A DNA stretch of 64,000 nucleotides from Faecalibacterium prausnitzii. GTDB lineage: Bacteria > Bacillota > Clostridia > Oscillospirales > Ruminococcaceae. The position numbers and the translations under genes were made by a program. Numbering within the stretch: position 1 is the stretch's first letter; every line of letters starts with the position of its first letter. The DNA lies in assembly GCF_003287495.1 (NCBI RefSeq), contig NZ_PRLE01000002.1, positions 62,001 through 126,000 on the forward strand. The letters are read 5' to 3'. The notes beneath the pieces are model-generated. The model searched no databases and had not been told where the DNA came from. It saw only the letters and a program-made list of their open reading frames with translations. Positions 2,102 through 41,971 of this stretch are shown here, in pieces.

Positions 2102-2283
2102 AACCTCTCAGTCGAGCTTCGCTCGCCAGCCGCTCCCCTTTCGGCACTTTCGTGCCACCTCCCCCGGCCGGGGGAGTCTTTCCTAGCAGGGGAGCCTTTG
2201 GCAAATAGGAAAAGCTTCCATCGACTGCCAAGGCCTCCCCTGTTAGGGGAGGTGGCACGCCGTCAGGCGTGACGGAGAGGTTT
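2102..2283. repeat. Palindromic intergenic repeat, copy 1 (full length)
   Basis: About 182 bases bounded by an imperfect inverted repeat (AACCTCTCAGTC at the left, GACGGAGAGGTT at the right). In order it holds a mini-hairpin GAGC/GCTC, a GGCAC/GTGCC hairpin, the perfect palindrome CTCCCCCGGCCGGGGGAG (2159-2176), a long inner inverted repeat (GGGGAGCCTTTGGCA against TGCCAAGGCCTCCCC) and a right-hand mini-hairpin ACGCC/GGCGT. The right end overlaps the stop codon of the ACT-domain gene. No open frame or transposase is present. Confidence 0.85.
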
Positions 2284-2551
2284 AAATCGTGTGCATGGCG
2301 TCGAAGACTTCCTGGCGGGTGAGGTTGATCTGCATCCCCATCTCTTTGGCCAGGGCGTCCATGCGCTGGTGCAGCTCCTCATGGCTGACACTGCACTTGG
2401 AGATATCCACCAGCATGATCATGGCGAACATGCCATGCAGAATGCTCTGGGTCACGTCCTCAATGTTGATATTCAGTTCGCTGCAAAGGGTCGAGACTTT
2501 GGCGACCACGCCAACGGTATCATGACCCATGACCGTGATAAATGCTTTCAT
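2282..2551 (-). CDS. ACT domain-containing protein (UPF0237 type)
   Basis: This 89-residue protein is a single ACT domain: MKAFITVMGHDTVGVVAKVSTLCSELNINIEDV is the canonical first strand, helix and second strand, with the glycine-rich ligand turn. ACT domains bind small molecules, usually amino acids, and mostly act as regulatory modules. Stand-alone members of this type are commonly encoded beside UPF0210 proteins, as here. ATG 2551 was chosen because the domain starts there; 19 further upstream in-frame residues are not conserved-looking. The SD is weak (GGGG, about seven bases upstream). Its stop codon lies inside the end of repeat copy 1, and repeat copy 2 lies 27 bases upstream of its start, so the gene is bracketed by two copies. 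Confidence 0.88.
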   Translation of the reverse strand: MKAFITVMGHDTVGVVAKVSTLCSELNINIEDVTQSILHGMFAMIMLVDISKCSVSHEELHQRMDALAKEMGMQINLTRQEVFDAMHTI

Positions 2552-2577
2552 AATTTCTACCCCATAATTTAAGTTTG

Positions 2578-2740
2578 ACCTCTCAGTCGAGCTTCGCTCG
2601 CCAGCCACTCCTCTTTCGGCACTTTCGTGCCACCTCCCCCAGCCGGGGGAGTCTTTGGCAAATAGAGAAAGCTTCCATCGACTGCCAAGGCCTCCCCTAT
2701 TAGGGAAGGTGGCATCGCGCTAGCGAGGACGGAGAGGTTT
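2578..2740. repeat. Palindromic intergenic repeat, copy 2 (full length)
   Basis: Same architecture as copy 1: left end ACCTCTCAGTC, left mini-hairpin GAGC/GCTC, GGCAC/GTGCC hairpin, C-rich/G-rich palindrome (one change), inner inverted repeat around TTGGCA/TGCCAAGG, right mini-hairpin TCGC/GCGA and right end GACGGAGAGGTTT. It fills much of the gap 2552-2911; the rest of that gap is AT-rich and holds the promoter of the next operon. Confidence 0.85.
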
Positions 2741-2839
2741 CGTTCCCCTCAAGTATAGCAGATTTGCTGAAATTTGAACACTGTTTTTAGAAAAAAGAAC
2801 CGAGAACACTCCCAAAAGACATTCTATGCAAAAAACCAG

Positions 2840-2868
2840 ATGAAAACAGCCGCCGCTTGTGTTATACT
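2840..2868 (+). promoter_or_regulatory. Sigma-A type promoter of the Lrp-aminotransferase-ispE operon
   Basis: The -10 box TATACT (2863-2868) is strong. A weak -35 (ATGAAA, 2840-2845) sits 17 bases upstream. The position, about 44 bases before the first ATG of the operon, fits. Confidence 0.5.
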
Positions 2869-2911
2869 TATTTACAAATCTCGCACAACAAGCTGAAAAG
2901 GAGAACGCACC

Positions 2912-3391
2912 ATGGAACAGCTTTTGAAAATTCTGGAAGATAACGCGCGGCTTTCCGTTGAGGACATTGCCACGATGCTGAATAAATCCCCCGCCGAGGT
3001 GGCGGCCATGATCGACCTGGCCCGGGCGCAGGGCATCATCAAGGGCTACAAGACCCTTGTGGACTGGGAAAAGGCCGGGGTGAACCGGGTGGAGGCGGTC
3101 ATTGAGCTGAACGTCAGCCCCAAGAAGAGCCGCGGCTTTGATGAGATCGCGGCCACCATTGCCGCTTTTGACGAGGTGGAGAGCGTGCTGCTGATGAGCG
3201 GCGGTTACGACCTGCAGCTGGTCATCAAGGGCCAGACGTTCCAGGAGATCGCCCTGTTTGTGGCAAAGCGGCTGAGCCCGCTGGACGATGTGCTGTCCAC
3301 GGCCACTCACTTTGTCCTCCGCACCTACAAAAAAGAGGGCCGCCTGTACCAGGACGACGAGATCGATGAAAGAGAGTGCACGGTGCTGTGA
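2912..3391 (+). CDS. Lrp/AsnC family transcriptional regulator
   Basis: The 159-residue protein has an N-terminal winged helix-turn-helix of the Lrp/AsnC type (residues 1-60: LLKILEDNARLSVEDIATMLNKSPAEVAAMI, then GIIKGYKTLVDW) and a C-terminal RAM/ligand-sensing domain (about 65-145, with VLLMSGGYDLQLVIKG). Proteins of this family form octamer-like assemblies and respond to amino acids. A good SD (AAAGGAGAA) precedes the ATG. Its stop overlaps the aminotransferase start (TGATG), so the two are translationally coupled. By family logic it probably controls its own operon in response to an amino acid made or used by the aminotransferase; this is inference. Confidence 0.92.
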   Translation: MEQLLKILEDNARLSVEDIATMLNKSPAEVAAMIDLARAQGIIKGYKTLVDWEKAGVNRVEAVIELNVSPKKSRGFDEIAATIAAFDEVESVLLMSGGYDLQLVIKGQTFQEIALFVAKRLSPLDDVLSTATHFVLRTYKKEGRLYQDDEIDERECTVL

Positions 3392-4575
3392 TGGATTACG
3401 AACGACTGATCGCGCCTGCCGCCAAGGCCATGCGGCCCTCCGGCATCCGCAAATTCTTTGATCTGGCCGCTGAGATGCCCGAGTGCATCAGCCTGGGCGT
3501 GGGCGAGCCGGATTTCAAAACGCCCTGGGCCGTGCGGGAAGCCGGCATCGAGAGCCTGGAACACGGCCGCACCCGCTACACCTCCAACGCGGGCCTCAAG
3601 GAGCTGCGGGCGGAGATCACCCGCTATCTCGCCCGCCGGATGAATCTCCACTATGAGCCCAGCCAGGTGCTGGTGACGGTAGGCGGCAGCGAGGCCATTG
3701 ACATGTGCATCCGCACGCTGGTCCAGCCCGGGGATGAGGTCGTCATCCCGGAGCCCTGCTTTGTCTGCTACGAGCCCATCACCACCCTTTCCGGCGGTGT
3801 GCCGGTCCATGTGGCCTGTCGACAGGAGGATGAGTTCCGCCTCAAAGCAGACGCTCTCAAAGCGGCCATTACCCCCAAGACCAAGCTGGTCATCATGCCG
3901 TTCCCCAACAACCCCACGGGTGCCGTGATGGAGCGGGAAGACCTGGAGGCCGTTGCGGAGGTGCTGCGGGGCACCAACATCATGGTGCTTTCCGATGAAA
4001 TTTACGCGGAGCTCAACTATGGCCTGCGGCCCCACGTCTCCATTGCGTCCCTGCCGGATATGGCGGAGCGGACCATCGTGGTCAATGGCTTCTCCAAGAG
4101 TTATGCCATGACGGGCTGGCGGCTGGGCTATGCCTGCGGCCCGGAGCCCATCATCAAAATCATGACCAAGATCCACCAGAGCGCCATCATGAGCGCCCCC
4201 ACCACCAGCCAGTACGCGGCCATCACCGCCCTGAAAGAGTGCGATGGCGAGATCGACCGGATGCGGGACGAGTACAACATGCGCCGCCGCCTGGTGGTGA
4301 AGAGCTTCAACCAGATGGGGCTGACCTGCTTTGAGCCCCGGGGCGCGTTCTATGCGTTCCCCTGCATCAAGTCCACCGGGATGAGCAGCCAGGAATTCTG
4401 CACAAAGCTGCTGGAACAGAAGCATGTGGCCATCATCCCCGGCGACGCCTTTGGTGCCTCCGGCGAGGGATATGCCCGGGTGTCCTACGCGTATTCCGTA
4501 GAGCACCTGAAAGAGGCCCTGAAGCGGATCAAGGAGTTCCTGCAGGAAAACGGCATTTATCACGGGGAAGCATAA
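3391..4575 (+). CDS. Pyridoxal phosphate-dependent class I/II aminotransferase
   Basis: This is a 394-residue fold-type I aminotransferase. Visible motifs are SLGVGEPDF near the N-terminus, TVGGSEAIDM, the PLP-contacting FPNNPTGAVM, DEIYAEL with the pyridine-nitrogen aspartate, and NGFSKSYAMTGWRLGY, where the lysine of SKS is the Schiff-base residue. It resembles the aspartate/aromatic/alanine-type group (PatA/AspC-like); the exact substrate cannot be read from sequence. ATG 3391 overlaps the stop of the Lrp-type gene; an in-frame GTG 15 bases upstream lies inside that gene and lacks an SD. The Lrp regulator is its natural partner, and ispE follows after 15 bases. Confidence 0.92.
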   Translation: MDYERLIAPAAKAMRPSGIRKFFDLAAEMPECISLGVGEPDFKTPWAVREAGIESLEHGRTRYTSNAGLKELRAEITRYLARRMNLHYEPSQVLVTVGGSEAIDMCIRTLVQPGDEVVIPEPCFVCYEPITTLSGGVPVHVACRQEDEFRLKADALKAAITPKTKLVIMPFPNNPTGAVMEREDLEAVAEVLRGTNIMVLSDEIYAELNYGLRPHVSIASLPDMAERTIVVNGFSKSYAMTGWRLGYACGPEPIIKIMTKIHQSAIMSAPTTSQYAAITALKECDGEIDRMRDEYNMRRRLVVKSFNQMGLTCFEPRGAFYAFPCIKSTGMSSQEFCTKLLEQKHVAIIPGDAFGASGEGYARVSYAYSVEHLKEALKRIKEFLQENGIYHGEA

Positions 4576-4590
4576 CGGGAGGAAACAACC

Positions 4591-5481
4591 ATGGCAACTT
4601 TGAAAAGCGTGACCGTTCTGGCCCCTGCCAAGCTCAACCTGGCACTGGATGTGGTGGGTCTGCTGCCCAACGGCTATCATAATCTGGATATGACCATGCA
4701 GGCCATCACCCTGTACGAGCGGGTGGTGCTCCGCCGGAGCAATACCCTGAGCCTGAGCCTGCCCGGCAGTCCGGTGGCCGCCAACGACAGCAATACCGCC
4801 ATCAAGGCGGCCATTGCCTTTTTCCAGTACACGGGCCTTTTGGCGGGTGTGGACATCACCATTTATAAAAACGTGCCCGTCCGGGCCGGTATGGCGGGCG
4901 GCAGTGCCGACGCCGCCGGTGTGCTGGTGGGCCTGAACGCCCTGTACGGGGCCAAACTCTCCATGAGTGAGCTCTGCGCTCTGGGTGCCAAAATTGGTGC
5001 CGACGTGCCTTTTGCTCTCATGGGCGGCACCTGCCGGGTGCAGGGTGTGGGCGATATCCTAAAAGCCCTGCCGCCCTGCCCGGACTGCTGGTTCACCGTG
5101 GTGATGCCGGATTACGGCGTCTCTACCCCGGAGGCCTTTGCGGCTTATGACAAAGTGGGCAGCAGCACCCACCCGGACTGTGAGGCCCAGGAAAAGGCCG
5201 TCCGGGCCGAAGATCTGGCCGGGGTCTGCGCGGCGGCCGGCAACGCGCTGGAAGAGTGCAGCGGTGCCAGGGACAACGAGGCCATCAAAGCGGCTCTCCG
5301 CCAGCACGGTGCCGTCACGGCCCTGATGACGGGCAGCGGCGCGGCGGTGTTCGGCGTGTTTCCCACCGAAGAGGCCGCCCGTGGAGCTGCCGAGGCCCTC
5401 AAGGCCCAGTGGCCGCAGGTGTATGTGGCCCAGCCCGATAAAGGCGGTGCCCGGGTCGTCAGCCCCAAATGGCTGCTGTAA
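4591..5481 (+). CDS. ispE: 4-diphosphocytidyl-2-C-methyl-D-erythritol kinase
   Basis: IspE phosphorylates CDP-methylerythritol in the non-mevalonate isoprenoid pathway. The 296-residue protein shows the GHMP kinase signature: APAKLNLALDV near the start, PNGYHNLDM, the ATP loop PVRAGMAGGSADAAGVL (about residues 93-109) and the C-terminal TGSGAAVFGVF. Length is normal. GGGAGG precedes the ATG. It is third in an operon behind an Lrp-type regulator and an aminotransferase, an unusual pairing, since ispE in Firmicutes often sits near purR or veg. A terminator hairpin follows at once. Confidence 0.95.
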   Translation: MATLKSVTVLAPAKLNLALDVVGLLPNGYHNLDMTMQAITLYERVVLRRSNTLSLSLPGSPVAANDSNTAIKAAIAFFQYTGLLAGVDITIYKNVPVRAGMAGGSADAAGVLVGLNALYGAKLSMSELCALGAKIGADVPFALMGGTCRVQGVGDILKALPPCPDCWFTVVMPDYGVSTPEAFAAYDKVGSSTHPDCEAQEKAVRAEDLAGVCAAAGNALEECSGARDNEAIKAALRQHGAVTALMTGSGAAVFGVFPTEEAARGAAEALKAQWPQVYVAQPDKGGARVVSPKWLL

Positions 5482-5499
5482 GCGTTTCAGAATGCATAA

Positions 5500-5547
5500 A
5501 CCCTCCTTTCTCCGGAAATGCTATTCCAAGAGAAGGGAGGGTCTTTT
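5500..5547 (+). terminator. Terminator after ispE that contains the SD of the DUF378 gene
   Basis: ACCCTCCTTTCT (5500-5511) pairs with AGAAGGGAGGGT (5531-5542) with one G-U pair, followed by CTTTTT. The 3' arm GGGAGG is also the SD of the next gene, whose GTG starts right after the T-run. Confidence 0.75.
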
Positions 5548-5548
5548 T

Positions 5549-5749
5549 GTGCAGACCTTTTATAAAATCTGTCTGATTCTCATGATCATCGGCGGCATCA
5601 ACTGGGGGCTGGTGGGCCTGTTCCAATTCGATTTTGTGGGCTGGCTGCTGGGCGGCAGCAGCTCCATCTGGTCCCGGATCGTGTTCACTGTGGTGGGCGC
5701 GGCCGCGCTCTGCGGCATCCCGGGTCTGTTTTCCGACGAAGCAGAGTAA
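5549..5749 (+). CDS. DUF378 family small membrane protein
   Basis: A 66-residue protein starting at GTG (VQTFYKICLILMIIGGINWGLVGLFQFD) matches the DUF378 (YuzA-like) pattern: a first membrane helix with the hallmark IIGGINWGLVG, a loop and a second helix (SRIVFTVVGAAALCGI). Function is unknown for the family. The start is fixed by the SD GGGAGG at 5535-5540; there is no ATG candidate before residue 14. The start codon follows a terminator T-tract directly, so translation depends on read-through transcription and an open hairpin, or on a promoter I cannot see. A bidirectional terminator follows. Confidence 0.82.
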   Translation: MQTFYKICLILMIIGGINWGLVGLFQFDFVGWLLGGSSSIWSRIVFTVVGAAALCGIPGLFSDEAE

Positions 5750-5752
5750 CGC

Positions 5753-5800
5753 AAAAACGGCTCCTTGCAAAAAACGGCCCCCTGCAAGGGAGCCGTTTTT
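5753..5800. terminator. Bidirectional terminator between DUF378 and redoxin genes
   Basis: AAAAACGGCTCC and GGAGCCGTTTTT pair, extended inward by CTTGCA/TGCAAG. A and T tracts flank both sides, so it can serve both convergent genes. Confidence 0.85.
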
Positions 5801-5811
5801 CTTGTGCCGTT

Positions 5812-6444
5812 TTATTCTTCTTCCCAGCCGACAAGATCGGGCAGGGTAAGGGTCTCATCAGAGCAGTGGGGATTGGTGGTACCATGGGCCGCCATAGACG
5901 CCCGCTCGATCTCCCGCACGATGTCGTTGATGGCCCGGCAGTCTTCGGGCAGGTCGGTCTGGTTGCGGCCGGAGTGGGTGAACAGAATCTTGCCCAGGTG
6001 GCCCACCACCAGTGTCAGGGGTAAAATCTGGGGGGCGGATTTATCGTAGTGGTAGCCCGCGTCTTTGGCGGCCTTGAAAATTTTCTGGGCCGCAAAGCTC
6101 CAGCTCAAAAGGCCGCGGGTCTGCTCCACACCCAGATACCCGTACAAAACGCCCGGTGCGTCGCAGATGACGGGGAACGGGAAATCAGAGCCCCGGGTGG
6201 CCGCCGCCACGCTCTGGGCCGAGGAGCGCACCACGCAGGCCAGCCGCACCCCTTTCAGGGCGGGCAGGGTCTTGAGATAGCGGGTGACATACTCCCGGGT
6301 GACCGGGTGGTCGAACCCGGGCAGAAAGATCATGCACAGCGGCCGGGTGCCCTCACACAGGGCGTAAAAATCGTTGCCCGGCACCGTGGGGGTGTCGTAG
6401 GTAAACCGGGGGATGCTGGTCCCCACCAGATGCTCACTTTTCAT
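5812..6444 (-). CDS. AhpC/TSA-like redoxin domain protein without the peroxidatic cysteine
   Basis: The 210-residue protein has a thioredoxin/peroxiredoxin-like layout: GNDFYALCEGTRPLCMIFLPGFDHPVTREYV (about residues 24-53), LPALKGVRLACVVRSSAQSV, FPFPVICDAPGVLYGYLGV and a late strand ILPLTLVVGHLGKILFTHSG. In active peroxiredoxins the loop after the FLP strand carries the peroxidatic cysteine (P...C...E); here it reads HPVTREY with valine at that place. Cys30 and Cys37 lie just before it and could have another redox role. ATG 6444 starts at a typical N-terminus; the SD (AAAGGA) is about 12 bases away. It may be a degenerate peroxiredoxin or a binding domain. No partner gene is adjacent. Confidence 0.65.
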   Translation of the reverse strand: MKSEHLVGTSIPRFTYDTPTVPGNDFYALCEGTRPLCMIFLPGFDHPVTREYVTRYLKTLPALKGVRLACVVRSSAQSVAAATRGSDFPFPVICDAPGVLYGYLGVEQTRGLLSWSFAAQKIFKAAKDAGYHYDKSAPQILPLTLVVGHLGKILFTHSGRNQTDLPEDCRAINDIVREIERASMAAHGTTNPHCSDETLTLPDLVGWEEE

Positions 6445-6492
6445 GCCGCAATGCACATCCTTTCCATCTTCACCAACAAAGCAAGAGTTGTA

Positions 6493-6523: not shown

Positions 6524-6544
6524 CTGCTGCACCCCAGATGCCTA

Positions 6545-6592: not shown

Positions 6593-6600
6593 ATTTCGAT

Positions 6601-6803
6601 AAAAAGATCCCGCCCGGTCGTCTGCGGTCAATCAAACCTACCCTTACGGACAGGTGGGTGCCCTGTCGCCGGATTCACGCTTCCTCATCGAGCCTCCATG
6701 GTCGACCCATGGCGGGGAGGTCTGCAATCCACCGGAGAACTCCAAGCTCCCGTTGAATGATTAGTAGGATCATATAAACCGCAACAAATCGCGCCGGGCA
6801 GGA
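6601..6803 (-). ncRNA. Candidate structured RNA of about 200 nt (unassigned)
   Basis: On the minus strand TCCTGCCCGG (6803-6794) pairs with CCGGGCGGGA (6617-6608), followed by TTTTT, closing a 200-nt domain. Inside, TGCGGT (+6623-6628) pairs with 6778-6783, and CCTAC (6637-6641) with 6764-6768 across an internal loop. An arm GGATT/AATCC (6671-6675 with 6726-6730) contains CCTC/GAGG and a CCATGG hairpin. A separate hairpin GACAGG/CCTGTC lies at 6649-6667. No reading frame fits. A 6S RNA would match in size but should be an unbranched rod; SRP, RNase P and tmRNA signatures are absent. The 5' closing arm can instead pair with CCAGGCA just upstream (about 6807-6813). It lies downstream of DUF1292, from which it may be processed; a TATATG at 6776-6771 could be a -10. 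Confidence 0.6.
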
Positions 6804-6839
6804 AGTCTTGCCTGGTAATTTGTCTGGAAAATAAGGGAC

Positions 6840-19235: not shown

Positions 19236-21320
19236 ATGTCGAAACTGGTGATCGTGGAGTCGCCCGCAAAGGCGAAGACCATTGGCAAATATCTGGGCAA
19301 GGATTACGAAGTAACGGCCAGCATGGGCCATATCCGGGATCTGCCCGCCTCGCAGCTTGGCATTGATGTGGAGCACGATTACGCGCCCCAGTACATCAGC
19401 ATCAAGGGCAAGGAAAAGCTCATCAAGGAGCTCAAGAGCAAGGCCAAGCACTCGGACGGCGTCATCCTTGCGACCGACCCGGACCGTGAGGGCGAAGCCA
19501 TCAGCTGGCACCTGGCCAATATCCTGGGCCTGGACCCCCACGGCAACAACCGCGTGACCTTTGACGAGATCACGAAGAAAGGCGTGCAGGAGGGCATGGC
19601 CCACCCCCGCGCCATTGACGAAGACCTCTTCAACGCCCAGCAGGCCCGCCGCGTGCTGGACCGTCTGGTGGGCTATAAGCTCAGCCCGTTCCTCTGGCGG
19701 AAAGTCCGCCGGGGCCTGTCGGCAGGCCGTGTGCAGAGCGTGGCCGTCCGGATCATCGACGACCGGGAAAAAGAGATCGAGAATTTCAAGCCGGAGGAGT
19801 ACTGGAACATTGACGCCAGCTTCGGCGTGGGCCGCAAGACCTTTACGGCCCGCCTCTCCTCGGACGCCAAGGGCAAAAAGCTCCTGCCCCACAATGAGGA
19901 AGAGGCCCGCGCCATTGAGCAGGGCCTGCAGGGGGCCGAGTACACCGTGGGCGAACTGAAAAAGGGTAAGCGCTCCAAGCAGCCCACCCCGGCGTTCATC
20001 ACCAGTACCCTGCAGCAGGAGGCTTCCCGCCGCCTGGGCTTTACGGCCACCCGCACCATGCGGGCCGCCCAGACCCTGTACGAGGGCGTGGACATTGCCG
20101 GGCATGGCACCATGGGTCTGATCACCTATATGCGTACCGACAGCCTCCGCATCTCCGATGAAGCCGTTGCCGCCGCAAAGGAGTATATCGCAGGGGCCTA
20201 CGGCGAAAATTATATCTGTCCCTACAAGCGCGCCTGGAAGACCAAGAGCGCGACCGCGGCGCAGGACGCCCATGAGGCCATCCGTCCCTCGGTGCCGTCC
20301 CTGACGCCGGACGAGGTGGATCAGAGCATCAGCGGCGATACCGCCAAGCTCTACCGGATGATCTGGAGCCGCTTTATGGCCAGCCAGATGGCCGACTGCC
20401 AGCAGGATACCGTGTCCGTGACCGTCTATGCGGGGGACTACCGCTTCAAGGCCAGCGGCTACACGGTCACGTTTGATGGCTTTACCGCCCTGTACGAGGA
20501 AGCCACCGACGAGAAAGAAAAGAAAGAGACCAGCCTGCCCCCGCTGGAGCAGGGCCAGGTGCTCAAGCTCAAGGAGCTGAAGAGCGAACAGAAGTTCACC
20601 CAGCCCCCTGCCCGTTACACCGAGGCCACCCTCATTAAGGCGCTGGAAGAGAACGGCATCGGCCGCCCCTCCACCTACGCGCCCATCATCACCACCATCA
20701 TTGACCGCGGCTATGTGGAGCGGGACCAGAAAAAGCTCAAGCCCACCCTGCTGGGCCGGGCCGTGGACGGCCTGATGCTGGAGCAGTTCCCTCACATCGT
20801 GGATGTGGACTTCTCGGCTGAGATGGAGAAGAACCTGGATAAGGTGGAAAGCGGCAAGGCCGACTGGCACAAGACCGTGGACGACTTCTATCAGGGGTTT
20901 GCAGCCAGCCTGGAGCAGGCGGAGAAGAACATGGAGGGCAAAAAGGTCAAGGTGCCGGACGAGCCCTCCAGCGAGGTGTGCGACCTGTGCGGCCGCCCCA
21001 TGGTCATCAAGGTGGGCAAGTATGGCAAGTTCCTGGCCTGCTCGGGCTTCCCGGAGTGCCGGGGCACCAAGCGGCTGGTCAAGGATACCGGCGGCATCTG
21101 CCCCAAGTGCGGCAAGGGCCGTATGCTGGAGCGTAAGAGCGCCAAGGGCCGCATTTACTACGGCTGTGAGCGCTACCCCGACTGCGATTTTATGACCTGG
21201 GACATGCCCGTGGCCACCAAGTGCGAGAAATGCGGCTCCACCCTCTTCCGCAAGGGCTCCAAGCTCTACTGTGCAAAAGAGGGCTGTGGCTTTGAGATGC
21301 CGGTGCCGAAGAAAGATTAA
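19236..21320 (+). CDS. topA: DNA topoisomerase I (type IA)
   Basis: The 694-residue enzyme relaxes negative supercoils through a 5'-phosphotyrosine. The TOPRIM domain is at the N-terminus (KLVIVESPAKAKTIGKYLG ... DPDREGEAISWHL); the catalytic tyrosine is in GLITYMRTDSLRIS (about residue 298). A C-terminal tail has three zinc-ribbon repeats: CDLCG...C, CPKCG...GCERYPDC and CEKCGS...C. The dprA-topA-trmFO order is typical of Firmicutes. SD AAGGGAGAA. The stop codon is immediately continued by repeat copy 3. Confidence 0.97.
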   Translation: MSKLVIVESPAKAKTIGKYLGKDYEVTASMGHIRDLPASQLGIDVEHDYAPQYISIKGKEKLIKELKSKAKHSDGVILATDPDREGEAISWHLANILGLDPHGNNRVTFDEITKKGVQEGMAHPRAIDEDLFNAQQARRVLDRLVGYKLSPFLWRKVRRGLSAGRVQSVAVRIIDDREKEIENFKPEEYWNIDASFGVGRKTFTARLSSDAKGKKLLPHNEEEARAIEQGLQGAEYTVGELKKGKRSKQPTPAFITSTLQQEASRRLGFTATRTMRAAQTLYEGVDIAGHGTMGLITYMRTDSLRISDEAVAAAKEYIAGAYGENYICPYKRAWKTKSATAAQDAHEAIRPSVPSLTPDEVDQSISGDTAKLYRMIWSRFMASQMADCQQDTVSVTVYAGDYRFKASGYTVTFDGFTALYEEATDEKEKKETSLPPLEQGQVLKLKELKSEQKFTQPPARYTEATLIKALEENGIGRPSTYAPIITTIIDRGYVERDQKKLKPTLLGRAVDGLMLEQFPHIVDVDFSAEMEKNLDKVESGKADWHKTVDDFYQGFAASLEQAEKNMEGKKVKVPDEPSSEVCDLCGRPMVIKVGKYGKFLACSGFPECRGTKRLVKDTGGICPKCGKGRMLERKSAKGRIYYGCERYPDCDFMTWDMPVATKCEKCGSTLFRKGSKLYCAKEGCGFEMPVPKKD

Positions 21321-21450
21321 ACCTCTCAGTCTGCTTCGCAGACAGCCGCTCCCCTTTCGGCACTTTCGCGCCACCTCCCCCGGCCGGGGGAGTCTTTCCT
21401 GGCAGGGGAGCCCTTGGCAGTGCGGGAATGTTTCTACTGACTGCCTGGGG
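21319..21450. repeat. Palindromic intergenic repeat, copy 3 (left half plus centre)
   Basis: Starts inside the topA stop codon (AACCTCTCAGTC). The left mini-hairpin reads TCTGC/GCAGA instead of GAGC/GCTC in copy 1. The CTCCCCCGGCCGGGGGAG palindrome and GGGGAGCCCTTGGCA arm are present; the right half stops after GACTGCCTGGGG. Confidence 0.8.
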
Positions 21451-22870: not shown

Positions 22871-23095
22871 GCCCTCTCAGGCCGCCTATTGGCGTCCAGC
22901 TGTTCCCCTTTTTGGCTTTGCCATTTTCCCCCGACCGGGGGAAATCTTTCCCAAAGGGGGAGCCCTTGGCAAAACCGGAAACATTGCGGGGACTGCCAAG
23001 GCCTCTCACTTTGAAAGACTCCCCCGGCCGGGGGAGGTGGCACGAAAGTGCCAGAAGGGGGCAAGGTGGCATTGCGAAGCAATGACGGAGAGGGC
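22871..23095. repeat. Palindromic intergenic repeat, copy 4 (second subfamily, extended)
   Basis: Outer ends GCCCTCTCAGGC and GACGGAGAGGGC define a variant of the family. It holds CCCCCGACCGGGGG-type and CTCCCCCGGCCGGGGGAG palindromes, inner arms GGGGGAGCCCTTGGCA / TGCCAAGGCCTCTC, a GGCAC/GTGCC hairpin and the right mini-hairpin ATTGC/GCAAT. At about 225 bases it is the longest copy and fills the trmFO-plsX gap. Confidence 0.8.
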
Positions 23096-23125: not shown

Positions 23126-24136
23126 ATGAAGATCATTGTGGATATGATGGGCGGCGACAACGCCCCGCTGGCGGTGCTGGAGGGCACGGCCGCCGCGGTC
23201 AAGGAGTACGGCGTGGAGGTCATCGGCGTGGGCGATGAGGCACTGGTCCGCAAGACCGCTGCCGAGCACAACATTCCGCTGGACGGCATCACCCTGCACA
23301 ACTGCACCGAGACCATTGAGATGTGTGATGAACCTGCCAGGGCCATCCGCTCCAAGAAAGATTCCTCCATTGTGGTGGGTCTCAACATGCTGAAAAACGG
23401 CGAGGGCGACGCGTTCGTCTCCGCCGGCAGCACGGGTGCCCTGCATGTGGGCGCCAGCCTCATCGTGCGCACCCTGCGGGGCGTCAAGCGCCCGGCACTG
23501 GCTACCATGGTGCCCGCCAAAAAGCAGGCCTATCTGCTGCTGGACTGCGGTGCCAATGTGGAGTGCCGCCCCGAGATGCTGGCCGCCTTTGCCGTGATGG
23601 GCAGCTGCTATGTCAACAAGGTGGAGGGCCGCCAGAACCCCACGGTGGCGCTGGCCAACAACGGTGCCGAGGAGAGCAAGGGAACCCCGATGCTGAGAGA
23701 AGCACATCAGCTGCTGAAAGTGACCCCGGGCGTGAATTTTGTGGGCAATATCGAGCCCCGGGACGTGCCCAACGGGGAAGTGGACGTGGTGGTCTGTGAT
23801 GGCTTTACGGGCAATGTCATCCTCAAGCTGACCGAGGGCGTGGCCAAGATGCTGCTGGGAATGCTCAAGCAGATGTTCCTGGCAAACCTGGGCGGCAAGC
23901 TGGCTTACCTGCTGCTCAAGGGCGGCGTGAGCGACCTCAAGCACCAGATGGACAGCGAGGAGTACGGCGGTGCCCCGTTCCTGGGGGCCAAGCAGCCCGT
24001 CATCAAGGCCCACGGTTCCTCCAAGGCCAAGGGCATCAAGAACGCCATCCGTCAGGCAAAGATCTGTGTGGAGAACGACCTGTGCGGCACCATGCAGGCA
24101 GCACTCGATGAGTTGAAACCCTCTCAGTCTGCCTGA
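23126..24136 (+). CDS. plsX: Phosphate acyltransferase PlsX
   Basis: PlsX converts acyl-ACP to acyl-phosphate for phospholipid synthesis. The 336-residue protein has KIIVDMMGGDNAPLAVLEG at the N-terminus, ISAGSTGAL-like FVSAGSTGALHVGA, LLDCGANVECRPEML and DVVVCDGFTGNVILKLTEGVAKML. SD AAAGGAG precedes ATG 23126. The last six residues (PSQSA and the preceding Lys codon boundary) and the stop codon are encoded by repeat copy 5, so the natural C-terminus has been replaced or extended. acpP and fab genes, often next to plsX, are absent; rnc follows. Confidence 0.95.
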   Translation: MKIIVDMMGGDNAPLAVLEGTAAAVKEYGVEVIGVGDEALVRKTAAEHNIPLDGITLHNCTETIEMCDEPARAIRSKKDSSIVVGLNMLKNGEGDAFVSAGSTGALHVGASLIVRTLRGVKRPALATMVPAKKQAYLLLDCGANVECRPEMLAAFAVMGSCYVNKVEGRQNPTVALANNGAEESKGTPMLREAHQLLKVTPGVNFVGNIEPRDVPNGEVDVVVCDGFTGNVILKLTEGVAKMLLGMLKQMFLANLGGKLAYLLLKGGVSDLKHQMDSEEYGGAPFLGAKQPVIKAHGSSKAKGIKNAIRQAKICVENDLCGTMQAALDELKPSQSA

Positions 24137-24176
24137 CGGCGGCCAGCTCCCCGGATCGGGGAGCCCTTGGCAAAGA
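24117..24176. repeat. Palindromic intergenic repeat, copy 5 (left fragment inside plsX 3' end)
   Basis: AAACCCTCTCAGTCTGCCTG, then CTCCCCGGATCGGGGAG and CCCTTGGCA. It keeps the left end, a shortened palindrome and the first inner arm only. Its first 20 bases are translated as the end of PlsX. Confidence 0.7.
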
Positions 24177-28511: not shown

Positions 28512-28698
28512 GCCCTCTCAGGCCGCCTATCGGCGTCCAGCTCTCCCAAAGGGAGAGCCCTTGGCAAAGAAATACACTTTGCGTGGACTGCCAAGGCCTC
28601 CCACTTTGGGAAAGATTCTCCCCGGTGCGGGGAGAAATGTCACCGTAGGTGACAAAGTGGGGAACCGGTGGCATCGCGTGAGCGATGACGGAGAGGGC
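28512..28698. repeat. Palindromic intergenic repeat, copy 6 (second subfamily, full length)
   Basis: Outer ends GCCCTCTCAGGC and GACGGAGAGGGC; inner CTCTCCC/GGGAGAG hairpin, CCCTTGGCA / TGCCAAGGCC arms around a short centre, CTCCCC/GGGGAG hairpin, GTCACC/GGTGAC hairpin and right mini-hairpin ATCGC/GCGAT. It lies between smc and ftsY. Confidence 0.82.
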
Positions 28699-29686: not shown

Positions 29687-29791
29687 AACCTCTCAGTCAT
29701 CGCTTGCGCGATGCCAGCCGCTCCCCTTTCGGCACTTTCGTGCCACCTCCCCCGGCCGGGGGAGTCTTTCCCAGCAGGGGAGCCCTTGGCA
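29687..29791. repeat. Palindromic intergenic repeat, copy 7 (left half)
   Basis: Starts four bases after the ftsY stop (AACCTCTCAGTC). Left mini-hairpin ATCGC/GCGAT, then GGCAC/GTGCC, the perfect CTCCCCCGGCCGGGGGAG palindrome and GGGGAGCCCTTGGCA. The right half is missing. Confidence 0.8.
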
Positions 29792-29848
29792 ACGAGGGCG
29801 AGTTTTGAGAAGACGCGAACGTTGGAACAAACGGGAGGAAGAAGCAAT

Positions 29849-34108: not shown

Positions 34109-34171
34109 GCCCTCTCCGCCTGCTGCACGATGCCACCTTGTCCCTTTTTGGCACAAAGCGCCTGAGAGGGT
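34109..34171. repeat. Palindromic intergenic repeat, copy 8 (short, internally deleted)
   Basis: GCCCTCTCCG at the left and CTGAGAGGGT at the right keep the outer inverted repeat; the centre is reduced to about 40 bases with a TGCCA...TGGCA pairing. It sits between rsfS and leuS. Confidence 0.6.
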
Positions 34172-37160: not shown

Positions 37161-37179
37161 CATTTCAGGAGGTTTACGG

Positions 37180-37683
37180 ATGTTTGTTACCCCCGAATAT
37201 GTCTTCAAGGATGTCACCCACATCACCCCGGAATGGCTGGCCGCCAAGGGCATCCGGGCGCTGGTGCTGGATATTGATAACACGCTCACGGCCGACCGCA
37301 GCCAGGATCTGCCCGACGAAGTGGCCGGGTGGCTGGCCCGGATGAAAACAGCCGGTGTGGGGCTTACCATCGTCTCCAACGGCGCGGAAAAGCGGGTGCG
37401 CCCCTTTGCCCGGAAGCTGGGGCTGGCCTACCTCTACCGCTCGGCCAAGCCCCTGCCTTTTGCCCTGATGGTGGCCCGCCGCCGGATGGGCGTCAAGCGC
37501 CGGGAGATGGCCATGGTGGGCGACCAGCTCTATGCGGACCGGATGGCGGCGGCCCTCTACGGCATCCCCGGCCTGATGGTCATTCCCCGGGGGCCGGACC
37601 TGGGCGCGCAGGTCGTCCTCAAGCGCAAGTGGGAGAAAAAGCACTGGCAGGCCTACTATGACCGGGGAGGGAAGACCCTGTGA
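37180..37683 (+). CDS. YqeG family HAD IIIA-type phosphatase
   Basis: The 167-residue HAD-superfamily hydrolase has motif I LVLDIDNTLTADRS (two aspartates), motif II TIVSNGAEKR, a lysine in AKPLPFALMVARRRMG, and motif III MVGDQLYADRMAA. Members are thought to dephosphorylate phosphatidylglycerophosphate-like or other substrates; the substrate here is not known. SD GGAGG. Its stop overlaps the GTG of the downstream endonuclease gene, so they are coupled. Confidence 0.9.
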   Translation: MFVTPEYVFKDVTHITPEWLAAKGIRALVLDIDNTLTADRSQDLPDEVAGWLARMKTAGVGLTIVSNGAEKRVRPFARKLGLAYLYRSAKPLPFALMVARRRMGVKRREMAMVGDQLYADRMAAALYGIPGLMVIPRGPDLGAQVVLKRKWEKKHWQAYYDRGGKTL

Positions 37684-38546
37684 GCGATTGGAAGATCCGG
37701 TTTGGCACGGCAGGCACTAGCGACAGCTTTGCCGCAAAGGGCTATAAAAACAGCCTGGACATCCCGGCTTACACGGCGGAGATGGGGCTGGACGCCTTTG
37801 AGTATCAGTGCGGGCACGGTGTCCGTCTGGGGCTGGAAAAGGCGGCCAGGATGGCCGCGGATGCCGCAGAGCGGGGCATCCTGTTCAGTGTCCACGCGCC
37901 CTATTATATCAGCATGTCCAGCCTGGAAGAGGACAAGCGGCTCAACAGTGTCAACTACCTGCTGCAAAGCGCGGCGGTCTGCAAGGCATTGGGCGGCAGG
38001 CGCGTCATCTTCCACCCGGGCAGCTGCGGCAGGCAGAGCCGGGAGGCGGCCCTGGAAAAGGCGCTGGATACCATGCGCCGGGCCCAGGCGGCACTGGATG
38101 AGGCGGGTTATGCGGAGATGACCCTCTGCCCGGAAACCATGGGGAAGATCGGCCAGCTGGGCACGCTGGAAGAGGTGCTGGCCCTGTGCAGCGTGGACAA
38201 GCGCGTTACCCCCTGCATTGATTTTGGCCACCTGAACGCCCGGACGCTGGGCGGCATCCAGTCCAAAGCCGATTATGCCGCCATCCTCGACCGGCTGGAA
38301 ACTGCGCTGGGGGATGAGCGGGCACGGCGGTTCCATGTCCACTTCTCCCGCATTGAGTTCTCCAAGGGCGGGGAAAAGCGGCACTGGACCTTTGCCGAGA
38401 CCCAGTTCGGCCCCGAGCCGCAGCCGCTGATGGAGCTGCTGGCGGAGCGCGGCCTTGCACCGGTTCTCATCTGCGAGAGCGCGGGCACCCAGGCAGAGGA
38501 CGCGCGGGCGATGCAGGCAATGTACCGCACAGCGTGCAAAACTTAA
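37680..38546 (+). CDS. Endonuclease IV-like TIM-barrel protein (AP endonuclease family 2)
   Basis: The 288-residue protein matches the Nfo/AP endonuclease 2 family: IRFGTAGTSDSF, FEYQCGHGVRLG, GILFSVHAPYYISM, VIFHPGSCG, TLCPETMGKIGQLG, VTPCIDFGHLNA and RRFHVHFSRIEFSKGGEKRHWTF. The histidine, glutamate and aspartate residues at these sites fit a trinuclear zinc centre. GTG 37680 overlaps the yqeG stop; SD GGGAGGG is seven bases before. It would cut at abasic sites in base-excision repair, although sugar-isomerase-like relatives exist. Confidence 0.85.
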   Translation: MSDWKIRFGTAGTSDSFAAKGYKNSLDIPAYTAEMGLDAFEYQCGHGVRLGLEKAARMAADAAERGILFSVHAPYYISMSSLEEDKRLNSVNYLLQSAAVCKALGGRRVIFHPGSCGRQSREAALEKALDTMRRAQAALDEAGYAEMTLCPETMGKIGQLGTLEEVLALCSVDKRVTPCIDFGHLNARTLGGIQSKADYAAILDRLETALGDERARRFHVHFSRIEFSKGGEKRHWTFAETQFGPEPQPLMELLAERGLAPVLICESAGTQAEDARAMQAMYRTACKT

Positions 38547-38585
38547 ACTTTTTTGTGTTTTTATCGTCTTTTTTGCTCAAACCCC

Positions 38586-38614
38586 TTGCCAAACAGCGTT
38601 GGATTGAGTAAAAT
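38586..38614 (+). promoter_or_regulatory. Promoter of efp
   Basis: TTGCCA, 17 bases, TAAAAT, about 55 bases before efp. Confidence 0.65.
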
Positions 38615-38667
38615 AAATAAAGATATGCATTATGCATTTGAGACATTAAACTAATGGAGGAATTCCT

Positions 38668-39225
38668 ATGATTTCTGCAGGCGAGTTTCGCAATGGCGTG
38701 ACCTTTGAGCAGGACGGCCAGGTTCTTCAGGTCGTTGAGTTCCAGCACGTGAAACCCGGCAAGGGCGCAGCCTTTGTTCGCACCAAGACCAAAAACGTGA
38801 TTACCGGTTCTGTGGTTGAGACCAGCTACAACCCGACCGCTAAGTTCCCTCAGGCGTTCATCGAGCGCAAGGACGTCACCTACAGCTATGAGGATGGCGA
38901 TCTGTACCACTTCATGGACAACGAGACTTACGATGACATCCCCGTCAACGCAAGCGATGTGCCCGAGAACTTCAAGTTCTGCAAAGAGAACGAGCTGTGC
39001 AAGCTGCTGAGCTACAAGGGCAAGGTCTTCAGCGTTGAGATCCCCAACTTCATCGAGCTGGAAGTCACCCAGACCGAGCCGGGTGTCAAGGGCAACACTG
39101 CTACCAACACCCTGAAGCCCGCTACCGTCGAGACCGGTGCTGAGATCCGCGTCCCCCTGTTCATCAACGAGGGCGACCACATCCGCATCGATACCCGCAC
39201 CGGCGAGTATATGGAGCGCGTCTGA
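38668..39225 (+). CDS. efp: Elongation factor P
   Basis: EF-P (185 residues) relieves ribosome stalling at polyproline stretches. It shows [39 protein letters not shown]; the loop lysine in KPGKG is the usual modification site. Domain II/III text [47 protein letters not shown] is complete. SD GGAGG. Flanked by its own promoter and terminator. Confidence 0.97.
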
Positions 39226-39242
39226 TTTTTTTGACCGATAAG

Positions 39243-39276
39243 ACCGGGCAGCGGGCAACCGTGTGCCCGGTTTTTT
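39243..39276 (+). terminator. Terminator of efp
   Basis: ACCGGGCA and TGCCCGGT close a stem around a 13-base loop, followed by TTTTT. Confidence 0.88.
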
Positions 39277-39312
39277 GTTAGAGGTTTCTTTTACAATAGG
39301 GAGGGCATTCTG

Positions 39313-39918
39313 ATGAAAGAAAAAGCTGCATACCTGAAAGGCCTGATCGACGGTCTTGGCATCGACGAGACCACCAAAGAGGGCAAGGTCATCAAGGCCA
39401 TGAGCGAGCTGCTGGGCGAGCTGGCAGAGGCTGTGGATGCCATTGATGAGGATGTGACCCACGCCTACGATCAGATCAATGACCTGAGCGAGGAGCTGGA
39501 AGACCTGGAAGCAGACCTCTACGAGGACGATGACACCGACGACGATGACGAGGAGCCCGAAGAGGACGCCGAGGATGCTGAGGACAGCGGCGACGATGAC
39601 GACAACGCCGATGTGGCAGGGGAGCCCTACTATGAGGTCGCCTGCCCGGCCTGCGGCAACACGGTTTATGTGAGCGAGGATGACCTCGACGCGGGCGAAG
39701 CCATCTGCCCCAGCTGCAACGTTGCCTTTGAGGTGGCGCTGGCCGATGAGGACGATGATGAAGCCCCCGAGGAGCCCGACGACGGCCCCGCGCGGTACGA
39801 AGTGACCTGCCCGGCCTGCGGTGCTACCTCCGTGGTGGACGAGGAAGCCCTGCTGGACGGCGAGCCTGTCTGCCCGGCCTGCGGCAAACCGCTGGACTTT
39901 GAGGTCACCGAGGAGTAA
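39313..39918 (+). CDS. Acidic protein with two C-terminal zinc ribbons (CD1247 N-terminal domain type)
   Basis: The 201-residue protein begins with a helical domain (MKEKAAYLKGLIDGLGIDETTKEGKVIKAMSELLGELAEAVDAI...) that runs into a coiled coil, then an extremely acidic linker of Asp and Glu (about 70-105). Two related four-cysteine zinc ribbons follow: CPACGN...CPSCN and CPACGA...CPACGK, separated by another acidic stretch. I recognise the layout from clostridial proteins annotated with a CD1247 N-terminal domain; no function is established. The zinc ribbons look like a tandem duplication. It follows efp and is monocistronic. Confidence 0.8.
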   Translation: MKEKAAYLKGLIDGLGIDETTKEGKVIKAMSELLGELAEAVDAIDEDVTHAYDQINDLSEELEDLEADLYEDDDTDDDDEEPEEDAEDAEDSGDDDDNADVAGEPYYEVACPACGNTVYVSEDDLDAGEAICPSCNVAFEVALADEDDDEAPEEPDDGPARYEVTCPACGATSVVDEEALLDGEPVCPACGKPLDFEVTEE

Positions 39919-39946
39919 ACGCCCCGCTGAAAAATCAAAAACACGG

Positions 39947-39994
39947 AAAGCCCCCGGCACTGCATCCCGTATTGGGAGAGTGCCGGGGGCTTTT
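39947..39994. terminator. Bidirectional terminator between the zinc-ribbon gene and argS
   Basis: AAAGCCCCCGGCAC and GTGCCGGGGGCTTTT pair, with A and T tracts at each side, between convergent genes. Confidence 0.9.
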
Positions 39995-40024
39995 CTGATT
40001 TATGGGAACGCGCGCGGAGCGGGC

Positions 40025-41839
40025 TTACATCTTCTCCGGGACGTTGATCTTGAACATGGTGAGCACGTTGAAGATGACGTTCTTGACACCGATGCAGAGG
40101 GCCAAGCGGGCCTGCTGGACAGCGGGGTCAGCGCCCTGAATGCGGCAGTTGCCGTAGAAGCGGTGGAACGCGCTGGCCAGGTCGATGACAAAGCGGTTGA
40201 TGCGGCTGGGATCGTACTTCTCGGCAGCCATGACGATCTCTTGAGGGAACGCGGCCAGCATCCGGATCAGATCCATCTCGCTGGGTTCGGTCAGCAGGGT
40301 GGCGTCGATCTTGTCAGCACCGGCAAAGGCCACGCCCTCGCTCTCCATCTTCTTGAGGATGGAGCAGATGCGGGCGTGAGCGTACTGGACGTAGTAGACC
40401 GGGTTGTCGTTATCGGTCTTGACGGCCTGATCCAGGTCAAAGTCGATGCCGCTGCCGGCGTCATGCATATTGAACAGGAAGCGCGCGCTGTCGATGGGCA
40501 CTTCCTCCAGCAGGTCGGTCAGGGTGATGGCATTGCCCGTGCGCTTGGACATACGAACCGGCTGACCGTCCCGCATCAGGTTGACCATCTGCATCAGGAC
40601 CACGTCCAGATCATTGCCGTTCAGGCCGATGGCGTCCATAGCGCCTTTCATGCGGGCCACATGGCCGTGGTGGTCAGCGCCCCAGACGTCGATGGCCTTG
40701 GCAAAGCCGCGGGTGGCCAGCTTGTTGTAGTGGTAGGCGATATCGGCGGCAAAGTAGGTGGGGATGCCATTGGCGCGGACGAGGACCTCGTCCTTGGCCT
40801 CCTCTTCGGTGCCGTCGTCGGTCTTCTTCTTGTTGACGGTACCGTACTTGGCAGCGTACTGAGCGCTGCGGTACATGATGGCACCATCTTCCGCCTTGTA
40901 GCAGGCACCCAGCTCCAGCAGCTTGTCCACCACGGCCATGACCGCACCGGACTCGTGCAGGGTGCTCTCGTGGAACCAGACGTCGTAGTCAATGCGGTAC
41001 TTGCCCAGGTCGCGTTTGAGGGCGGCAATGTTCTTGGGCAGGGCATAGGCCACCAGAGCGTCTTTCAGGGCTGCAAAGGCCTCACTCTCAAACAGAGCTT
41101 CCTCGTCCATGCCCTGGCAGGCGGCAACGTACTTGTCGCCGTTGATCTCAGCGAACTCACCGGCCAGCACCTTGATGTCGCCGCCCTGATAGCACTCAGC
41201 GGGCAGAGGATAAGCCTCCTCGCCGCAATACTTCTGCAGGTAGCGGACCGCCAGGCTCTTGCCGAACTTCTGGATCTGGTTGCCGGCGTCGTTGATGTAG
41301 AACTCACGGGTCACATCGTAGCCGGACCAGTCCAGCACGGCGGCCAGGCAGTCTCCCAGAGCGCCGCCGCGGGCGTTGCCCATGTGCATGGGGCCGGTGG
41401 GGTTGGCAGAGACGAACTCCACGTTGTACTTGGCACCCTTGCCGTGGTTGGTGCGGCCATACTCCTTGTTGGCGCAGGCACCCGTCACGACACCGGCCCA
41501 GAACGACGGAGCCAGGAACAGGTTGATGAAGCCGGGACCGGCCACTTCCACCTTAGCGAACACGCCGCCCTCCAGAGCAGGCAGGTGGGCCAGCAGGGCG
41601 TCCGCGATCATCTTGGGTGCCTTGCGCCAGGTGCGGGCACCGGCCATGGCCAGGTTGGAGGCGATATCGCCGTTCTTGACATCAGCGGGGATCTCCACGA
41701 TGAATGCGGGCAGCTCTGCCTCGGGCAGGGTGCCATCGGCCATGGCGGCCTTGGCGGCAGCCGTCAGCAGGGCGCGGGCCTCGTCCAGCGCTGCCTGCCG
41801 GGGGTTGTAGTTCTGGTAGGTCTTTTCAAAATCAGTCAT
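40025..41839 (-). CDS. argS: Arginine--tRNA ligase
   Basis: The 604-residue class I synthetase has VEFVSANPTGPMHMGNARGGALGD (HIGH motif as HMGN, about 120-143), a DALR anticodon domain at the C-terminus (YVQYAHARICSILKKM ... HRFYGNCRIQ) and RMSKRTGNAITLTDLLEEV as the KMSKS-like loop. It lies downstream of the DUF1934 gene with a repeat remnant (copy 9) in the 129-base gap. The SD is AAAGGA, seven bases before the ATG. No T-box is visible. Confidence 0.96.
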   Translation of the reverse strand: MTDFEKTYQNYNPRQAALDEARALLTAAAKAAMADGTLPEAELPAFIVEIPADVKNGDIASNLAMAGARTWRKAPKMIADALLAHLPALEGGVFAKVEVAGPGFINLFLAPSFWAGVVTGACANKEYGRTNHGKGAKYNVEFVSANPTGPMHMGNARGGALGDCLAAVLDWSGYDVTREFYINDAGNQIQKFGKSLAVRYLQKYCGEEAYPLPAECYQGGDIKVLAGEFAEINGDKYVAACQGMDEEALFESEAFAALKDALVAYALPKNIAALKRDLGKYRIDYDVWFHESTLHESGAVMAVVDKLLELGACYKAEDGAIMYRSAQYAAKYGTVNKKKTDDGTEEEAKDEVLVRANGIPTYFAADIAYHYNKLATRGFAKAIDVWGADHHGHVARMKGAMDAIGLNGNDLDVVLMQMVNLMRDGQPVRMSKRTGNAITLTDLLEEVPIDSARFLFNMHDAGSGIDFDLDQAVKTDNDNPVYYVQYAHARICSILKKMESEGVAFAGADKIDATLLTEPSEMDLIRMLAAFPQEIVMAAEKYDPSRINRFVIDLASAFHRFYGNCRIQGADPAVQQARLALCIGVKNVIFNVLTMFKINVPEKM

Positions 41840-41919
41840 TTGTCAGATGTCCTTTCCGTTTGAACGCAGGGCCCACATGGTTTGGGAGCCGCAGGCGAAA
41901 CAATAAAACTGGCCCGACA

Positions 41920-41971
41920 TGCCAAGGGCTCTCCTGACAGGAGAGCTGGTGCGTCAGCGCCTGAGAGGTTA
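41920..41971. repeat. Palindromic intergenic repeat, copy 9 (half copy)
   Basis: TGCCAAGGGCTCTCC, a GGAGAG partner, GGTGCGTCAGCGCC mini-hairpin and CTGAGAGGTTA at the end. Read in the direction of the DUF1934 gene, it begins in that gene's stop codon, as copy 3 does for topA. Confidence 0.7.

Follow-up and report, generated by a model that had tools for sequence, protein, structure and literature searches.

Palindromic repeats with paired terminal hairpins in Faecalibacterium prausnitzii and DUF559 as their candidate partner enzyme

Results

Hairpin-ended elements in the window

The DNA analysed here, called the window throughout, is a stretch of 64,000 nucleotides from Faecalibacterium prausnitzii (contig NZ_PRLE01000002.1 of assembly GCF_003287495.1, positions 62,001 to 126,000 of the forward strand). 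We describe a family of dispersed palindromic elements in it that are similar to repetitive extragenic palindromic (REP) sequences, together with genes of the DUF559 family (PF04480) that lie beside such elements. Each half-element consists, in this order, of an outer CCTCTC, a tag, a mini-hairpin (hp1), a (G)CCA tail, a C-rich hairpin of the form CTCCCC..GGGGAG (hp2) and CCTTGGCA. The tag is AGTC or AGGC at one end (the A-end) and CGTC at the other (the B-end). A full element is composed of an A-half and an inverted B-half flanking a short variable centre, and half-units are also found singly or nested within the loop of an hp2. The first-pass annotation had counted nine copies; all nine sites hold an element or a remnant, with starts correct to within 1–2 nt, and comprise four full A-to-B elements, three A-halves, one half on the minus strand and one degenerate pair of ends:

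2102..2282, plus strand: full element of type AACCTCTC..GAGAGGTT; A-end hp1 GAGC TTC GCTC, B-end (CGTC tag) hp1 ACGCC..GGCGT
2159..2176, no strand: CTCCCCCGGCCGGGGGAG, read as the hp2 belonging to a nested unit; also exact at 21375, 23019 and 29747
2577..2739, plus strand: full element, 81% identical to the element at 2102..2282
21320..21445, plus strand: A-half with nested unit; hp1 GTCTGC TTC GCAGAC
22871..23095, plus strand: full element of type GCCCTCTC..GAGAGGGC; nested units on both sides
24118..24172, plus strand: A-half of type ACCCTCTC; hp1 imperfect
28512..28698, plus strand: full element of type GCCCTCTC; nested unit on the B side
29687..29792, plus strand: A-half with nested unit; hp1 ATCGC TTGC GCGAT; a stop codon lies shortly upstream
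34109..34171, plus strand: degenerate pair of ends (GCCCTCTCCGCC .. CCTGAGAGGGT)
41920..41970, minus strand: A-half; hp1 imperfect

In the element at 2102..2282, an hp1+hp2 unit is nested inside the loop of the A-side hp2. We read the 18-nt palindrome CTCCCCCGGCCGGGGGAG likewise: it forms the hp2 of an hp1+hp2 unit that sits in the loop of another hp2. It had been described as common to the copies; it is exact at the four positions listed, occurs with one mismatch at 2634 and three mismatches at 22926, and is absent or variant in the other copies. The TTGGCA/TGCCAA arms, likewise ascribed to the family, were found in the four full copies. The mini-hairpins quoted earlier are present, although they are imperfect at the right end of the second copy (CTCGCTAGCGCGAT), at 24118 and at 41970. 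At the Rfam gathering threshold no family matched the elements, and the window yielded only a 6S RNA (6603-6807, minus strand) and a ZMP/ZTP riboswitch (48338-48424, plus strand).

In the host genome (2.68 Mb, 19 contigs) one copy had 45 matches and a second type had 80 (E ≤ 1e-3), and the family therefore exceeds chance. The matches to the first copy were unevenly spread, with only 1 of the 45 on contig C8, which holds 756,268 bases or 28% of the genome, and most on contigs C12-C15.

A search with a pattern blind to pairing collected 177 distinct ends. Of these, 68 carried C at the tag position and were thus B-ends; all 68 read CGTC, where the pattern permitted CGTC or CGGC, and 66 continued with CAC. 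The remaining 109 were A-ends, with AGTC in 66 and AGGC in 43. The outer ends fell into matched subtypes, GCCC/GGGC (33), AACC/GGTT (29) and ACCC/GGGT (13) among 83 paired ends. The tail behind hp1 was GCCA, ACCA or TCCA in the listed ends, partly by construction, CA being in the search patterns. At two further loci, L124 (genome G013) and L122 (genome G002), another insert (GGGCAACGACGACGACCGCCGCCAGTGGCGG..) lies within or beside the hp2 of an element; hp2 loops may serve as insertion sites for other repeats too.

Pairing and covariation of the terminal mini-hairpin

Among the 177 ends, 135 formed an hp1 of at least 5 bp with at most one mismatch, 24 had a tandem mismatch and 18 showed neither. 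As a control, half-hairpins were exchanged within length classes for the 173 ends in adequate classes. The paired fraction of these ends was 0.780, against a mean of 0.388 and a maximum of 0.462 in 500 swaps of the right halves. There were 31 distinct 5' arms, mostly of 5–6 bp with a few of 7–9 bp, and the 135 loops were 3 nt (83) or 4 nt (52) long. Arms reading ATCGC and ATTGC were common in the genus; AC, AG and TT occurred at the first two stem positions elsewhere.

The cross-genus pattern CTCCGTCN{6,14}GCCACCTC, searched in 197 genomes of the order, matched in 45 genomes at 262 sites, compared with 17 sites for the reversed pattern. Places were listed for 150 of the 262 sites, and the listed rows held 24 distinct 28-nt sequences from several genera, all of which were aligned; two of the 24 look like chance matches and were retained. 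Five of the six hp1 pairs changed on both sides, the sixth being fixed by the search pattern. Of the 144 cells 89.6% were paired (shuffled, 69.4%) and 15 were unpaired; 24 held double-sided changes (shuffled, 6.2) and none a one-sided change. The covariation score was 0.455 against 0.110 for shuffled alignments, and 0 of 500 shuffles scored as high. With hp1 paired beyond the swap control and covarying across genera, the earlier claim that the hairpins are selected for pairing is upheld.

The compensatory change also claimed is seen across genera, but there is little drift in situ at vertically kept copies. In four comparisons of orthologous ends with at least 97% flank identity the hairpin was unchanged in three and had one broken pair in the fourth. 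Among 43 same-side end pairs that were 92% or more identical in the 60 nt inward of hp1, 12 had a different, perfectly paired hp1 and 5 differed by at least two double-sided stem changes. The A-half at 21320 has orthologues in G002 and G013 with the same hp1, so that GTCTGC..GCAGAC is common to three species, and one in G003 that is otherwise similar and has hp1 AATGC..GCATT. On these comparisons, the variety of hp1 comes mainly from distinct element lineages plus some exchange of hp1, and not from gradual drift at a site.

The loops themselves point to the kind of nucleic acid in which hp1 folds. On the inward strand 121 of the 135 loops read TNC or TNNC, which corresponds to GNA or GNNA on the outward strand, at both ends of the element, and the 24 ends with a tandem mismatch have TC/TC inward, that is, GA/GA outward. 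Loop type thus goes with one strand at each end, the one that runs 3' out of the element. In DNA, tandem GA and C-G-closed GNA or GNNA loops have unusual stability. GNRA, the loop form favoured in RNA, made up only 17 of 43 tetraloops, hence no GNRA bias. Because of the outward GNA/GNNA loops, the tandem GA, the missing GNRA bias and the lack of one-sided changes, selection on hp1 pairing suggests a single-strand DNA structure at each end, and where the first-pass annotation had offered RNA or a DNA cruciform, single-stranded DNA now seems the better reading. Two other candidates were dropped on sequence alone: attC-like ends, given the variant GCCC..GGGC ends, and a plain terminator, no T-run having been noticed behind hp2.

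Presence and absence at orthologous gene junctions

The gene junctions of seven window sites were compared across up to 30 genomes of the genus. At many orthologous junctions there was only a bare gap of roughly 13–90 nt, and elsewhere an element of another subtype or orientation. Presence or absence differed even between genomes of 95–98% identity; at several of these sites the element-free gap differed too, and not all of them are therefore clean insertions. In G028, an element of 542–556 nt carrying a DUF559 gene occupies a place that measures 2–16 nt in the 98% identical G027. Because orthologous gaps in related species are empty or otherwise filled, the elements are mobile, coming and going between species at fixed gene junctions. 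The earlier description as a REP-like family or one of miniature inverted-repeat transposable elements (MITEs) is in this respect supported, as a mobile REP-like family.

Across 1728 settings of offset and length, the 83 elements compared gave no constant target duplication. The best-ranked setting had an identity of 0.31 against 0.24 expected, and the highest z, 5.3, came from a subset of 13 ACCC-type elements with unequal offsets. By eye, one insertion has a 9-nt direct repeat (AATAAGGGA) and another possibly one of 7–8 nt. A separate block in G017 (L177-L179) shows insertions without these ends between genomes of about 96% identity, among them a 172-nt near-palindrome, GGCAACACCGCATAATTC..GCGGTATTGCC, and one of 322 nt; these perhaps represent other MITE-like families.

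DUF559 genes beside the repeats in the genus

According to the first-pass annotation no transposase is present. The host genome indeed had no match to Y1/RAYT (PF01797), the sole family searched, and the same search was positive in 5 of 14 control genomes; a candidate enzyme, DUF559, does however lie outside the window. An open reading frame (ORF) inside two of the elements, 506 and 523 nt long, is a DUF559 gene, and PF04480 scored 93.9–100.5 bits in the four proteins scanned (curated cut-off 20.6). Of 31 genomes of the genus, 13 matched PF04480, with 15 matches in all; one match falls within a long protein. PF04480 was present in 9 of the 13 genomes with strong copies of the element and in 4 of the 18 others. 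The neighbourhoods of the 14 short DUF559 genes, like those of the order described below, are given as counts without a matching control set: a tagged paired REP lay within 400 nt in 11, and a C-rich hairpin was present in 13, or on at least one side of all 14 by eye. Six of the genes share one syntenic place, again by eye. Directly upstream of the DUF559 gene at this place, locus L255 of G015 holds four tandem elements with a period of 157–158 nt (826-1423).

Repeat subtype was compared with the DUF559 protein tree for 10 genes labelled by eye (5 GC, 3 AA, 2 AC; 4 genes were left unlabelled). The labels required 2 changes on the tree, which is the minimum, and 0 of 200 shuffles were as low. 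One genome, G015, has two DUF559 enzymes, one with GC-type and the other with AC-type neighbours.

Association beyond the genus

Named genomes were scanned with 13 DUF559 proteins, and the results in this paragraph refer to the best 80 of 577 confirmed loci, mostly from Clostridia. Of 68 usable loci, 37 had flanks with an inverted-repeat score of 16 or more, compared with 0 of 544 control windows. A stricter control was provided by the flanks of other mechanically called ORFs at the same loci. C-rich hairpins lay within 150 nt of 63 of 73 DUF559 genes and of 31 of 286 other ORFs, and on both sides of 34 of the 73 and 1 of the 286; a tagged REP was found within 400 nt of 57 of 73 and 33 of 286, respectively. 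REPs stood on both sides of 22 of the 73 genes. The nearest tag faced the DUF559 gene in 45 of 56 cases upstream and 20 of 23 downstream.

Within the order, PF04480 was found in 57 of 197 genomes, with up to five matches per genome. Of 30 loci examined 23 were usable; 14 of these had a tagged REP, which faced the gene in 9 of 11 cases upstream and 10 of 12 downstream. PF04480 occurred in 24 of the 45 genomes with the tagged pattern and in 33 of the 152 others (Fisher p=7e-5, kinship ignored). Distances between genes and sites were taken from 150 listed of 262 sites and 93 listed DUF559 rows. On this basis 17 of the 150 CTCCGTC..GCCACCTC sites, in 13 genomes, lay within 500 nt of PF04480 where 0.12 were expected; 14 of the 17 were 28–45 nt from the match, seven of them at 39 nt. 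Genomes with a PF04480 row held 97 of the 150.

DUF559 is also the family of YcjD of Escherichia coli K-12. A C-rich hairpin lies on the fabI side of ycjD, and it is a repeat that matched 5357 of 5426 E. coli genomes, with a median of 14 places among those that matched; we take it to be Box C. A set of other bacteria was made up of ycjD and 12 of 43 plasmid-collection records with a relative, chosen for variety. In this set a C-rich hairpin was present within 400 nt of 11 of 13 DUF559 genes and in 6 of 78 random windows, and within 150 nt of 9 of 13 genes and 1 of 17 other ORFs. The flanks were inverted repeats above the control in A. lipoferum, S. meliloti, Novosphingobium and two Deinococcus, and in Novosphingobium they had an identical CCTCCGTC-hp-GCCACCTCCCC arrangement. 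Several PLSDB records filed as plasmids, including NZ_CP119142.1, are probably chromosomes, judging by their size (2.17 Mb in N. gonorrhoeae, 4.8 Mb in E. coli).

Predicted fold of DUF559

An AlphaFold2 model built from 13 DUF559 sequences had a mean predicted local distance difference test score (pLDDT) of 84.7 and a predicted template modelling score (pTM) of 0.78. The best Foldseek match was NGO0050 of N. gonorrhoeae (E 7e-6), followed by the catalytic domain of the homing endonuclease I-Bth0305I (E 1.5e-4); mitoribosome chains came lower (E 1e-3 to 3e-2), and AbaSI, TnsA and Vsr were weaker matches. A phmmer search with DUF559 found 3hrl (E 2.8e-13). By fold, DUF559 is thus a predicted Vsr-like nuclease. 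VsrA, a DUF559 protein of C. crescentus, is reported to have a link with DNA damage and with the SOS response (PMC12907096).

Discussion

The repeats and their candidate enzyme

We consider it fairly probable, with confidence a little beyond the balance, that the elements are REP-like mobile elements of the CGTC-tag kind with DUF559 as a dedicated partner enzyme. From the gene neighbourhoods we infer that DUF559 may act on the hairpins and drive their spread, and by analogy we propose that the two form a REPtron-like pair in which DUF559 takes the part of RAYT. In such a pair DUF559 would recognise hp1 once the DNA becomes single-stranded during replication or repair and would nick the DNA next to the tag. 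Host repair might then join the element, released or copied, into a gap, leaving no fixed target duplication, and elements without a DUF559 gene would use the enzyme in trans, like REPs with RAYT. A broader statement, which we advance tentatively and think could well prove too wide, is that CGTC-type REPs, and related C-rich hairpin repeats in many phyla, owe their mobility to DUF559 nucleases as the enzymes so far missing, each an HUH-free, Vsr-like nickase that would read the shape of a single-strand hairpin (GNA/GNNA loop, tandem GA) beside a short tag.

Several observations weigh against a dedicated partnership. In the genus, 4 of the 13 genomes with strong copies have no DUF559 (G012, G014, G027 and G029) and 4 of the 13 with PF04480 have no strong copy (G004, G011, G022 and G025). 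Three of the 14 genus genes have no tagged REP by pattern, and tag orientation there is mixed, the nearest tag being turned towards the gene in 6 of 10 upstream cases and 2 of 5 downstream. The host itself has many AACCTCTC-type (AA) copies, whereas its single DUF559 gene has GCCCTCTC-type (GC) neighbours. The agreement of subtype with the protein tree depends on labels set by eye and on a tree with 2 of 11 inner branches well supported; the co-occurrence figure disregards kinship, and the gene-site distances come from the listed sites, 150 of 262. In the other bacteria, the flanks of 8 of the 13 loci were no better inverted repeats than control windows. As to mechanism, cleavage, binding and transposition by DUF559 are read from its predicted fold and gene context, a Vsr-like hydrolase alone would not be expected to join strands, and no constant target duplication was seen over the 83 elements.

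The same data can be read in other ways. DUF559 could be a selfish gene of the homing type that lands at REP hairpins, the repeats spreading by other means, and the Vsr-like homing endonuclease I-Bth0305I among its top fold matches and the DUF559-bearing element that is polymorphic between 98% identical genomes are both in agreement with this; other mobile elements are known to target REPs. We nevertheless regard homing as unlikely, since outside the genus the upstream tag usually faces the gene (45 of 56), 14 of the 17 near sites fall at 28–45 nt, REPs flank 22 of 73 genes on both sides and enzyme relatives match repeat subtype, the mixed orientation in the genus notwithstanding. It is improbable, in our estimate, that DUF559 is a domesticated repair or cruciform-processing nuclease with REPs as its substrate or regulator and their spread past or incidental. 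The recent presence and absence of elements, one of them carrying DUF559, and the up to five matches per genome in the order speak against domestication, while the one or two matches per genome in the 13 genus genomes, the six genes at one conserved place and the reported link of C. crescentus VsrA to the damage response (PMC12907096) speak for it.

Two further explanations leave DUF559 aside. A role in RNA, with the elements retained because they stabilise or terminate transcripts at their 3' ends, would fit their position between long ORFs, often shortly past stop codons (by eye), and the discussion of REP transcription and G-T stem pairing by Di Nocera et al. (PMC3733652). It is quite improbable in view of the missing GNRA preference (17 of 43), the absence of one-sided changes of the G-U type in 144 cells, the many orthologous junctions from which the elements are missing and the occurrence of both orientations at one junction. 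An ordinary MITE moved by an unseen DDE transposase, with an incidental DUF559 association, would account for the inverted termini, for the 9-nt direct repeat and the possible 7–8 nt one, and for the unexplained flank match in the 13 ACCC-type elements; we think it very improbable, given that 1728 settings gave no constant target duplication and that the association with DUF559 is far above the controls.

If a DUF559 partnership is correct, there would be a second, HUH-free way to make REP families. DUF559, a family of unknown function in Pfam, would gain a proposed substrate, and a single-strand DNA hairpin with a GNA-type loop is a suggested structural reason why stems change their letters and yet stay paired. 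What is new here is the finding of DUF559 genes, predicted to encode a Vsr-like nuclease, sitting among tagged hairpins. No publication linking DUF559 to such repeats was found in the literature searched, which included few subscription journals, and an earlier report is possible.

Comparison with known systems

REP-type hairpin repeats can reach thousands of copies in some bacterial genomes (PMC3733652). As described in that survey (Di Nocera, De Gregorio and Rocco 2013), REPs of the CGTC class consist of the tag, a stem of 8–9 bp, a loop of 4–5 nt and a CCA tail, occur without associated transposase genes and apparently have no dedicated transposase; many REPs are argued to be transcribed, and G-T pairing in stems is noted. 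C. crescentus is one of its CGTC species, and the main text, as available, makes no mention of Faecalibacterium, Firmicutes, Clostridi- or DUF559. Our elements are like these REPs in the CGTC tag at the foot of the hairpin, the CCA tail, heterogeneous stems with few loop types, and an intergenic, often dimeric occurrence. They differ in the shorter stem (5–6 bp) and loop (3–4 nt), in the second, C-rich hairpin hp2 and in the AGTC/AGGC tag at one end, and they are found in Clostridia with flanking DUF559 genes, whereas the survey authors found no associated transposase. The class is further described by A-T pairs at stem positions one and two and by TGTC or CCTC as alternative tags; at those stem positions our elements vary, with AT common in the genus and AC, AG or TT elsewhere. 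Sharing tag and tail, they are here termed CGTC-REP-like on sequence grounds and are not filed as members of the class, because stem and loop lengths differ. RAYT is the known enzyme of the GTAG class, and for the CGTC class the survey named no enzyme and did not settle the question (PMC3733652); the DUF559 association offers a concrete candidate.

A further known system is the REPtron, in which GTAG REPs accompany RAYT (Y1, PF01797) and are thought to use it in trans. In both systems REPs flank a gene with one or a few copies per genome, and repeat subtypes each have their own enzyme; unlike RAYT, DUF559 has a predicted Vsr-like fold and is not an HUH tyrosine transposase, and the host genome is without a PF01797 match. 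The E. coli repeat beside ycjD is likewise a C-rich hairpin repeat adjoining a DUF559 gene, although no CGTC tag or hp1 was noticed there and the flanks of ycjD are not mutual inverted repeats. In its predicted fold DUF559 is similar to I-Bth0305I and, weakly, to Vsr itself; it differs from Vsr-like homing endonucleases in that no intron or intein was noticed and the gene is framed by REP half-units.

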